Assembly: GCF_002019635.1 (NCBI RefSeq)
Contig: NZ_KV917371.1
Location: forward strand, 1,532,001-1,596,000
Reading direction: 5' to 3'
Length of the DNA stretch: 64,000 bases
Source of the DNA: Metabacillus halosaccharovorans
GTDB taxonomy: Bacteria > Bacillota > Bacilli > Bacillales > Bacillaceae
Shown here: one piece after another, positions 881-16,778 of the stretch
Layout: every line of letters begins with the position of its first letter
How positions within the stretch are numbered: the stretch's first letter is position 1
Translations under genes and position numbers: made by a program
The notes under the pieces: generated by a model
Seen by the model: the letters and a program-made list of their open reading frames with translations, nothing else
What the model was told of the DNA's origin: nothing
Database searches by the model: none

Positions 881-1040
881 TTTATATTATTAGAACATAC
901 TAATTGTGAGAGCTTTATGAAAAAAACTGTACATACTATATTTTAAAACTAATTTCATATTTCATTATATGAGGGGAATACTATTCTTAAGATTTACTTA
1001 AAGCATAAGAAAATTCATATGGAATAACTGTCGATTTCTG

Positions 1041-1069
1041 TTGACACCATTAACTTAGTGCGCTATGAT
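1041..1069 (+). promoter_or_regulatory. Sigma-A promoter of metK leader
   Basis: Consensus -35 TTGACA (1041-1046) and -10 TATGAT (1064-1069) separated by 17 bp. Transcription would start near 1076, just ahead of the SAM riboswitch. Confidence 0.85.
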
Positions 1070-1086
1070 ATGACCTTGAACGGATT

Positions 1087-1399
1087 CTCTTATCCCGAGC
1101 TGGTGGAGGGACAGGCCCTATGAAACCCAGCAACCTGCTATCAAAGGAAAGCGGCGAATGCGCACTAATTATATAGTTACTAGTATTAGCAGTTTTTTGC
1201 CTGACCTAATAAAAACAAAACTCGTTTTGTTTTTATTAGGTCAAGAATGATGCTATGCATCATTCTAAGCAAGCGTAAGCTTGCTTAGGCAAAAAAGTCC
1301 CAATCTGTGGAACTATGTTTAAAAGGCGCACTCCCTGCGACATTTTCCGACGCAAAGGTGCTAACCTGAAGCAAGGCGAAAGCCCTTGATCGATAAGAG
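1087..1399 (+). promoter_or_regulatory. SAM-I (S-box) riboswitch with a greatly enlarged P3 arm
   Basis: SAM-binding leader RNA that turns off metK when S-adenosylmethionine is plentiful. P1 pairs CTCTTATC (1087-1094) with GATAAGAG (1392-1399). Conserved core blocks follow in order: GGTGGAGGGA, the GGCCC/TATGAAACCC region, GCAACC, then GGTGCTAA-CCTG and a P4 hairpin near 1372-1388. The usual S-box aptamer is about 100-120 nt; this one is 313 nt because about 200 nt of extra paired sequence sits in the P3 loop. The transcript ends in a conditional terminator at 1422-1452. GAAAGG (1401-1406) could pair with CCTTTC of the terminator's left arm, giving a candidate antiterminator. Confidence 0.95.
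1193..1296 (+). other. Four-way-junction insert inside riboswitch P3
   Basis: An outer 10-bp stem (1193-1202 with 1287-1296) encloses three hairpins placed almost end to end. They are a 19-nt perfect inverted repeat (1203-1221/1224-1242, two bases between arms), a 10-bp hairpin (1244-1253/1257-1266) and an 8-bp hairpin with a GTAA tetraloop (1267-1274/1279-1286). Only base 1243 is left unpaired at the junction. Weaker pairs continue the arm outward (ATAGTT 1173-1178 with AACTAT 1311-1316; TGCGC 1159-1163 with GCGCA 1326-1330). Function is unknown; it may be a structural P3 extension or an inserted repeat. Confidence 0.8.
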
Positions 1400-1421
1400 C
1401 GAAAGGCGATGAACGATAACA

Positions 1422-1452
1422 AACCTTTCCTCATAGGGGAAAGGTTTTTTTG
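1422..1452 (+). terminator. Conditional terminator of the metK riboswitch
   Basis: Nine-bp stem AACCTTTCC (1422-1430) with GGAAAGGTT (1438-1446), followed by a T tract. It lies 22 nt after aptamer P1, as in transcriptional S-box switches. Confidence 0.92.
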
Positions 1453-1622
1453 ATAACAGAAATAAGTATTTTCTTCATTAGAGTTTTACCAGGACAAGCA
1501 TTGTGGTAAAGGTACATAATACTTCTGTTCACAAATATGCCAACGTGATTTTCTAAAGGTCAAACTTTGGGAAGAGTTCCGGATCAACTGAATGAACAAA
1601 TATGAGGAGGAAGCTTTTAACT

Positions 1623-2819
1623 ATGTCTAAAAAACGTCTATTTACTTCTGAGTCTGTAACAGAAGGCCATCCAGATAAGATTTGTGACCAAATTTCAGAT
1701 TCAATTCTTGATGCAATAATCTCAAAGGATCCTAACGCACGTGTAGCGTGTGAAACTTCTGTTACAACAGGTTTAGTACTGGTTGCTGGAGAGATTACAA
1801 CAAGTACGTATGTTGATATTCCTAAGATTGTTCGTGAAACAATTAAAGATATCGGATATACTCGTGCAAAGTATGGCTTTGATGCAGAAACATGTGCTGT
1901 TTTAACTTCTATTGACGAGCAATCAGCAGATATTGCAATGGGTGTTGACCAAGCGCTTGAAGCTCGTGAAGGACAAATGTCTGATGAAGAAATTGAAGCA
2001 ATCGGTGCAGGTGACCAAGGGTTAATGTTTGGTTTTGCTTGTAACGAAACGAAGGAATTAATGCCACTTCCAATTTCTTTAGCTCATAAAATATCCCGCC
2101 GTTTAACAGAGGTACGTAAAGAAGAGATTCTTCCATATCTTCGTCCAGATGGTAAAACACAAGTAACGGTTGAATATGATGAAAATAACAAACCGGTTCG
2201 TATTGATACAATTGTTATTTCTACTCAACATCATCCGGAAGTTACGTTGGAACAAATTCAACGTAATCTTAAGGAATATGTTATCAATCCAGTTGTTCCT
2301 AAAGAATTAATTGATGAAAACACTAAATACTTTATTAATCCTACTGGTCGTTTCGTAATTGGTGGACCACAAGGTGATGCAGGTTTAACTGGTCGTAAAA
2401 TTATTGTTGATACTTATGGTGGATATGCTCGTCATGGTGGTGGAGCATTCTCAGGTAAGGATGCAACAAAAGTTGACCGCTCTGCTGCATATGCTGCTCG
2501 CTATGTTGCAAAGAATATTGTTGCTGCAGGATTAGCTGAAAAGTGTGAAGTTCAATTAGCGTATGCAATTGGGGTAGCACAACCTGTATCTATATCTATT
2601 GATACATTTGGAACAGGAAAAGTTTCAGAAGAAGTATTAGTAGAAGTTGTTCGCAGTAACTTTGATCTACGCCCTGCGGGAATCATTAAAATGCTTGACT
2701 TGAGACGTCCTATCTACAAGCAAACTGCTGCTTATGGACATTTTGGTCGAAATGACTTAGATCTTCCATGGGAAAGAACAGACAAAGCGGAAGCACTTAG
2801 TAATGCTGCGCTTAAGTAA
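1623..2819 (+). CDS. metK: S-adenosylmethionine synthetase
   Basis: Makes S-adenosylmethionine from methionine and ATP, releasing phosphate and pyrophosphate; a cytoplasmic tetramer in the known family. The 398-residue product is full length and nearly identical to B. subtilis MetK, with GHPDK near residue 16, GAGDQG in the middle and the P-loop-like GGGAFSGKD near residue 275. The frame is open from 1602, but the ATG at 1623 gives the [11 protein letters not shown] start of the family, with GGAGG 12 nt upstream. Expression is controlled by the SAM riboswitch in its leader, and a terminator follows at 2829. Confidence 0.98.
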
Positions 2820-16519: not shown

Positions 16520-16778
16520 ATGTATAGGAAATGAACGGTGAAAAGGAATAGTAGTTAGTAAAAATGTGTTCAGAGAGTTGACGGGTGGTGTGAGTCAATC
16601 AATTTTTGCTAATGAACTCACCTTTGAGTTACAAATGTGAACACCGCTTAAGGTAAAGTAATATTTGTCGTCGATCCACGTTACGGATGTCAAAGTGGGC
16701 ATAATAACACTATGCCAAAGTTGGGTGGTACCACGGGAATTAAGCCTCTCGTCCCTATTTGGGATGTGGGGTTTTTTT
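16520..16778 (+). promoter_or_regulatory. T-box leader of leuS (Leu, CUC specifier)
   Basis: tRNA-sensing leader. Stem I contains the AGTA box (near 16549-16553) and, on its 3' side, GAACTCACC with specifier CTC (16617-16619) for leucine. The conserved T-box GGGTGGTACCACGGG lies at 16723-16737; its TGGT would pair with ACCA of tRNA-Leu. A terminator follows at 16745-16778. A weak promoter (TTGCAT near 16482, TATAAAAT near 16503) lies upstream. Confidence 0.93.
16745..16778 (+). terminator. T-box conditional terminator
   Basis: CCTCTCGTCCC (16745-16755) pairs with GGGATGTGGGG (16761-16771) through GC and GT pairs, followed by seven T residues. Confidence 0.9.

Follow-up and report, generated by a model that had tools for sequence, protein, structure and literature searches.

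A four-way-junction domain in the P3 arm of SAM-I riboswitches before metK, metI and yitJ in Metabacillus

The window, by which we mean the whole stretch of 64,000 nt of Metabacillus halosaccharovorans DNA analysed here, carries the metK gene preceded by a SAM-I (S-box) riboswitch at positions 1087-1399, whose response to SAM is predicted from its sequence. The features of this locus are the following.

1041-1069, plus strand: sigma-70-type promoter-like site for the metK leader, TTGACA-17 nt-TATGAT (consensus scan, 11/12 matches)
1087-1399, plus strand: SAM-I (S-box) aptamer including the P3 insert (P1 arms, partial Rfam SAM match, full-model match of the leader L015)
1087-1094, plus strand: 5' strand of P1 (inverted repeat, pairs with 1392-1399)
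1392-1399, plus strand: 3' strand of P1 (pairs with 1087-1094)
1421-1447, plus strand: intrinsic terminator of the expression platform (base-pair probability 0.955)
1623-2819, plus strand: metK, methionine adenosyltransferase (NCBIfam TIGR01034, 631 bits; the listed open reading frame starts at 1602)

The closing helix P1 is complementary over 8/8 bp, the conserved P2/J core and the base of P3 can be read directly off the window sequence, and the expression platform consists of the terminator with metK downstream, its antiterminator pairing being read by eye and not computed. The Rfam SAM model (RF00162) aligned to positions 1087-1191 of this leader only, with 34.4 bits against a cut-off of 44.4. 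The sister metK leader L015 (L-numbers designate single loci), whose core letters are identical and whose P3 arm has 179 nt, matched the full model with 57.2 bits. When the same model was applied to 17 related leaders, the ten which passed all had a P3 of at most 179 nt and the seven which failed all had a P3 of at least 186 nt. Since success follows the length of P3, and since L015 is matched in full, we concluded that the core in the window is normal and that the miss follows the length of the insert, not changes in the core. Together with the complete P1 and the core letters, this bears out the initial annotation, which had described the S-box core as intact. We also noticed that all 8 nt of the conserved CCCUAUGA of the aptamer (1116-1123) are complementary to the terminator on its loop side (1431-1438), which may be due to chance or to an alternative pairing. 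A gathering-level Rfam search of the whole window gave a single match, a T-box leader (RF00230, 146.8 bits) at 16529-16759 on the plus strand.

The P3 arm had been credited with about 200 extra nt, and our measurements agree: it has about 220 nt in the window, against 47-108 nt in ten of the 21 genomes of our genus set (the window's genome being G000); the metK P3 measures 179-246 nt in ten genomes of the set and 142 nt in one. Inside this arm lies a cloverleaf made of the following parts.

1193-1296, plus strand: cloverleaf (four-way junction) domain within the P3 arm (fold z -12.2, covariation, model matches)
1193-1202, plus strand: outer stem, 5' strand, U6GCCU, 10 bp (pairs with 1287-1296)
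1203-1242, plus strand: hairpin 1, 18 bp, loop CUCG (arms 1203-1220 and 1225-1242)
1244-1266, plus strand: hairpin 2, 10 bp, loop UAU (arms 1244-1253 and 1257-1266)
1267-1286, plus strand: hairpin 3, 8 bp, core GCAAGC-GUAA-GCUUGC, loop GUAA (arms 1267-1274 and 1279-1286)
1287-1296, plus strand: outer stem, 3' strand (pairs with 1193-1202)

A1243, between hairpins 1 and 2, is the one unpaired base of the junction, and hairpin 1 becomes 19 bp long if 1202 pairs with 1243 instead. The junction which we obtained by rereading and refolding the sequence thus occupies exactly 1193-1296, with stems of 10, 18-19, 10 and 8 bp and one unpaired base, as it had first been drawn. The fold of this 104-nt element has an energy of -55.4 kcal/mol, to be compared with a mean of -17.65 (sd 3.09) for shuffled sequences; none of 200 dinucleotide shuffles was as low. 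In transcripts ending at 1300, 1400, 1455 and 1625, computed with no SAM in the model, the mean pairing probability of the cloverleaf helices is 0.88-0.98, and that of P1 drops from 0.98 to 0.13 across those lengths as the terminator forms. On paper, the cloverleaf is predicted by this modelling to fold independently of the state of the switch. On the minus strand, positions 1314-1296 read as a hairpin resembling a terminator, with a T-run behind it which comes from the A-run of the outer stem.

Other Rfam families matched the window leader only with scores far short of gathering level; for the metI and yitJ loci of the same genome, which are described below, the result was RF00162 plus one sub-threshold microRNA match and nothing else; and a tRNA scan of window positions 900-1700 found none. 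On these scans we rejected a tRNA-like or other known RNA identity. The GNRA loop reported for hairpin 3 is present in the window as GUAA but varies among relatives (GUAA in 4/8, AUAA in 1/8 and GACA in 3/8 aligned metK rows), and since it is not kept we rejected the docking of a GNRA tetraloop as a conserved feature of the domain.

All four helices are kept in the metK leaders of seven of the 21 genomes (G000, G002, G003, G005, G006, G016 and G019). The cloverleaf is absent or eroded in the other 14, namely absent in ten and eroded in four: in G015 both hairpin 1 and the outer stem's 5' strand are gone, the copies of G012 (L018, a segment of 234 nt with a P3 of about 223 nt) and G020 are rearranged, and that of G014 is a remnant. 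In a tree built from metK and pckA, eight carriers, including the eroded G015 and G020, fall in one clade (97/99), and two pairs of sisters (100/100 each) join the carrier G016 to the non-carrier G010 and the rearranged G012 to the non-carrier G008; according to pairwise alignments, the metK leaders of each pair are near-identical outside the insert. This absence or erosion in 14/21 genomes, together with the differences between sisters, means that the metK copy is dispensable there. The history of the insert is either one gain followed by several losses, or a matter of transfers. Between G006 and G016, 10/19 unpaired letters of the insert differ, a divergence of the order of that of the metK third positions (150/397), which speaks against G016 having received its copy recently from the main clade. 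Of 59 members of the family outside the genus set, 14 read directly and the rest judged by match spans, none showed a metK P3 longer than 125 nt. The metK P3 of G024 (L031/L149), from another genus of the family, has 125 nt and no match to the cloverleaf model; it may be that P3 has grown more than once.

The S-boxes of the window's genome were also surveyed. Ten were found, and two besides the metK one have a giant P3, both on contig G000:C2: one of 274 nt at about 2040 kb, followed by a gene for a MetI-type enzyme (620 bits with PRK08247), and one of 281 nt at about 2119 kb, followed by a gene for a bifunctional homocysteine methyltransferase/methylenetetrahydrofolate reductase of the YitJ type (500 bits with PRK08645); both scores exceed their cut-offs. 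Five others have a P3 of 17-50 nt, and the remaining two, L136 and L139, were judged short by eye, their end motif being unmatched. The metI and yitJ leaders pass RF00162 (53.4 and 46.5 bits) with alignments which stop inside P3; in two loci, L170 (1802-1941, minus strand) and L192 (1503-1600, plus strand), Rfam misplaces the true 3' half of the metI/yitJ aptamers. A covariance-model search, which had been proposed for metK leaders, did find metK copies, and went beyond that proposal in finding the same architecture at metI and yitJ.

Two models were used, R1 built from seven metK inserts and R2 from 15 metI/yitJ domains, each of which matches its own training rows by construction. In direct searches, R2 matched seven of the 21 metK leaders with E-values from 2e-16 to 2e-9, and these are exactly the leaders with four helices; its match to L015 was weak (E 0.013). 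Conversely, R1 matched 14 of 26 metI/yitJ leaders at E <1e-6, including the yitJ leader of the window's genome (60.0 bits), and missed the other 12, among them that genome's own metI leader; scanned over the genus, it found 11 metI or yitJ leaders at full length, with a best E of 5.8e-15. Since R1 misses 12/26, the homology of the metK copies to those of metI and yitJ rests on the architecture and on hairpin 3. We folded eight of the 11 long metK arms (without L015, L017 and L019), 16 metI-type arms (without L185, L187 and L188) and ten yitJ arms, and the junction appeared in the minimum-energy folds of 7/8, 12/16 and 8/10 of them, respectively, the exception in metK being L018, which forms a different multiloop. 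The order of the branches is constant, the three hairpins having 58-69 nt, 17-23 nt and 12-22 nt; hairpin 1 keeps this length in 26 of the 27 arms with the usual junction order, and the window is the exception with 40 nt.

By eye, the outer stem is U-rich on its 5' side and A-rich on its 3' side in all three genes, and the core of hairpin 3, GCAAGC-N4-GCUUGC, is found in most metK copies and in 5/5 yitJ and 2/6 metI copies aligned. Other traits, also seen by eye, belong to metI and yitJ only: AGCAC/GUGCU at the junction, GGCUUG...CAAGCC in hairpin 2, a similar lower P3, and, in hairpin 1, a 3x3 internal loop together with an apical loop of 9 nt near GCGNNNUUG. The metK copies lack this apical loop and differ from metI/yitJ in the sequences of hairpin 1 and of the lower P3. 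In a tree of 28 copies, one branch sets off all ten yitJ copies and another all six metK copies, metI falling between them, with the caution that long branches meet in this tree; since the copies group by gene, their descent appears to have followed the gene, without homogenisation inside each genome. One could then suppose that the metK cloverleaf arose separately from that of metI and yitJ, long P3 arms tending to branch in this genus. The differing hairpin 1 and lower P3, the 12/26 leaders missed by R1 and the long branch leading to metK (with the caution that long branches call for) would fit this idea. However, R1 and R2 match in both directions with no comparable R2 match elsewhere in the 21 genomes, the long-short-short order is the same, and the core of hairpin 3 (in metK, yitJ and some metI copies) and the U-rich/A-rich outer stem recur between genes, so that we hold a separate origin to be rather unlikely.

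By sequence, the insert of the window is a single copy in its genome, without a second match, and blastn of positions 1150-1330 against plasmid and phage collections gave no match. Scanned over the genus at E <=0.1, R2 returned 60 rows in 19/21 genomes, of which 35 are places in sense orientation (three of them at E 0.017-0.026), the other 25 being the same palindromes read in antisense. All 35 sense places are S-box leaders: 28 loci which we checked, six metK leaders, and one place in G020 which is an S-box leader with an eroded P3. That check covered 30 loci, two of which proved to be antisense duplicates; in the 28 others, the S-box core lies 50-161 nt upstream and the gene downstream is metI (16) or yitJ (12). 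The genome-wide searches scored 11-150 candidates per genome and are non-exhaustive: the R2 scan missed the metK copy of G003, which has 58 bits in a direct search. At E <=0.001 with 42 candidates scored per genome, R2 gave no match in the 59 members of the family outside the genus set, and at E <=1e-4 with 11 candidates per genome none in a sample of 298 other genomes from the order, which includes at least ten of the same family. Five R1 matches fell away from known S-boxes. The strongest candidate outside S-boxes is L163 (G007:C448:7593-7682, E 6.7e-4), and the four others have E-values of 0.08-0.75; at three of the five places, L163, L164 and L165, no S-box was recognised and a direct R2 search gave no match.

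The single copy by sequence, the lack of a match among plasmids and phages, and the 35/35 sense R2 places in S-box leaders led us to reject a dispersed mobile or palindromic repeat (MITE/REP-like). They also speak against the simple inserted repeat which was one of the roles first listed for the element; the scaffold, the second sensor and the RNase or protein site of the same list stay candidates, the list having been drawn up before the metI and yitJ copies were seen.

We then come to the question of whether the pairing is maintained. In 11 metK P3 arms, 94.9% of the cells of 80 pairs are paired and double-sided changes occur in 14/80 pairs; all five measures exceed those of all 500 shuffles and of every slid control. 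The cloverleaf accounts for ten of these 14 pairs, of which hairpin 1 holds nine, and there are none in the outer stem or in hairpin 2. In the metI and yitJ domains (15 chosen ones, aligned with MAFFT), 14/47 pairs are double-changed, over 54 cells, with 98.7% paired, and the shuffles came level in 0/500 cases on four of five measures and in 5/500 on the fifth. When 28 copies of the three genes are taken together (matches at E <=1e-11 from 28 chosen loci), double changes affect 36/47 pairs and 204 cells, with 0/500 shuffles as high, in an alignment which was fitted to the structure. Hairpins 2 and 3 hardly vary within metK and are invariant in the metI and yitJ alignment; being nearly invariant within a gene, they give little covariation there. 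A sequence kept in relatives with its pairing lost had been named as the sign of a junction existing on paper only; we found the opposite, compensatory changes which keep the pairing. Hence a paper artefact is rejected, by the covariation in metK, in metI with yitJ, and in all three together.

Some of the changes bear marks of events at the DNA level. Hairpin 1 has 62-64 nt in the six other intact metK copies and is shorter by about 12 nt per arm in the window: compared with G019, 12 nt are gone from each arm, and yet the arms are perfectly paired again. Hairpin 2 has a UAU loop in G000 and G005, and the reverse complement AUA in G019. A study of template switching during replication describes such footprints (PMC8794818), and in view of these traces some of the covariation may be of mutational origin. 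In L010 (G005), the left arm of hairpin 1 lacks two single bases and the right arm is unchanged, which looks like an uncorrected stage of arm divergence.

We compared the rates of change of paired and unpaired letters of the insert between genomes. Between G000 and G006, 3/88 stem letters differ against 7/15 unpaired ones (Fisher p 3e-5), with 144/398 differences at metK third positions; between G006 and G002, the figures are 0/108 against 5/20 (p 6e-5), with 14/398 at third positions; G000-G003 gives 6/88 against 5/16 (p 0.012) and G000-G019 gives 3/88 against 3/16 (p 0.045). The closest pair, G000-G005, is reversed (4/88 in stems, 0/16 unpaired, 27/398 at third positions), and comparisons which involve the rearranged copies of G020 and G012 give a high stem divergence (17/61, 24/89). 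The paired columns of the insert are thus mostly slow-evolving, with G000-G005 as an exception. Among variant pairs, counted as types and not as independent events, G-U exceeds A-C on the sense strand in the metK inserts (16 against 6, p 0.026) and in the 28 copies (26 against 6, p 0.0003). This excess points to selection on the sense RNA, and it disfavours a purely antisense or DNA-level element despite the footprints of template switching. Template switching explains the joint changes of the arms; it does not by itself explain the low divergence of the stems or the excess of G-U.

These data bear directly on whether the domain is a mere passenger, a palindrome tolerated at the tip of P3, which avoids SAM, and kept paired by template switching and by the need to spare P3. 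Its presence or absence between sister species with near-identical flanks, the symmetric shortening of the arms in G000 and the inversion of the loop between G000/G005 and G019 are what a passenger would leave. Against this stand the conservation of the stem sequence itself, far below the divergence of metK third positions in most pairs (not in G000-G005), the excess of G-U over A-C, and the occurrence in three genes, always in the P3 of an S-box, with no firm copy elsewhere. We therefore regard a passenger as improbable.

The reading which we prefer, and which we consider probable, is that of a peripheral domain, specific to the genus and folding on its own, which three SAM-I riboswitches share and whose role is putatively accessory. 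The core P1-P4 and the terminator at 1421-1447 would work as a SAM-I transcription-termination switch. The cloverleaf would fold by itself as soon as it is transcribed and join the two strands of P3 across about 220 nt, which would keep the RNA of the insert out of the exchange between P1, antiterminator and terminator and leave the control by SAM to the core. The domain may in addition act as an accessory platform for a putative partner. We call it accessory since in many genomes single loci are without it while the riboswitch core stays. Judging from the sequences, the unpaired motifs kept in metI and yitJ and the restriction to switches of methionine/SAM genes would favour some recognition, and the frequent loss and the variable metK loops would favour an accessory or passive role.

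Recognition could take the form of a processing or docking site, hairpin 1 being cut by RNase III or bound by a protein so as to tune the stability of leaders and mRNAs of the methionine regulon. The steady length of hairpin 1 (58-69 nt in 26/27 arms), its roughly 26-27 consensus pairs with an internal loop in the relatives, and the internal loop and apical-loop motif common to metI and yitJ would suit such a site. In Staphylococcus aureus, the met leader RNA is slightly stabilised in an RNase III mutant, and RNase III is cited as targeting riboswitches, according to PMC3771891; this effect on a met leader makes a processing site plausible. However, hairpin 1 is cut down to 18 bp in the window and lost in G015, and a processing or docking site seems to us unlikely.

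Alternatively, the domain could be a second sensor, which would bind a metabolite, a tRNA or a small RNA and thereby alter P3, so that metK, metI and yitJ would answer two signals. Three of the ten S-boxes found in the genome of the window have the domain, each of the three before a methionine/SAM gene, the unpaired motifs of metI and yitJ are conserved, and there is a precedent in a Xanthomonas SAM-I riboswitch which is reported to sense uncharged initiator tRNA through its expression platform (PMC7270179). The metK loops, however, vary and lack the apical loop of metI/yitJ, the predicted fold is the same at all leader lengths, and losses are many, which makes a sensor quite improbable. It can still be envisaged, as a bold proposal which we deem somewhat unlikely, that the whole is a composite riboswitch, in which a functional RNA domain nested in P3 makes the metK, metI and yitJ switches depend on a further input, be it a protein, an RNase, a tRNA or a metabolite. 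If this were true, one aptamer would sit inside an arm of another.

The locus shares with RF00162 the P1-P4 core and its letters, the intrinsic terminator and the metK/metI/yitJ context; it differs by a P3 of 220, 274 and 281 nt (metK, metI and yitJ) with a nested four-way junction and by a metK leader below the cut-off of the model. The SAM-I variant which senses spermidine (PMC10853860) has the same architecture, and a member before metK was studied; its changes concern J1/2 and the internal loop of the core P3, whereas here the insert is large and distal. J1/2 of the window resembles that of other Bacillaceae metK leaders: CCGAG is identical in 19 other leaders of the genus (L010-L028), and the similar CCUGAG is found in L050 (Metabacillus fastidiosus) and in the metK leader of B. 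subtilis (L064). The Xanthomonas riboswitch (PMC7270179) resembles ours as a SAM-I with an additional RNA function, putative here, but carries it in the expression platform, while the change in the window is in P3. A search of open-licence papers for SAM-I P3 inserts, mostly at the level of titles and listings, found no such domain described.

In some riboswitch aptamers the peripheral stems vary and grow without touching the ligand pocket; here, unlike such variable stems, a covarying multi-branch domain is shared by three S-boxes. SAM-I is among the best-studied riboswitches, and its P3 arm is usually regarded as passive. A conserved P3 domain at three switches of methionine/SAM genes means that the arms of an aptamer can carry whole conserved domains. 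As metK S-boxes with a long P3 escape the standard covariance model at its own cut-off, such leaders may be under-annotated. Finally, the sister species with and without the domain constitute a natural experiment on its function.
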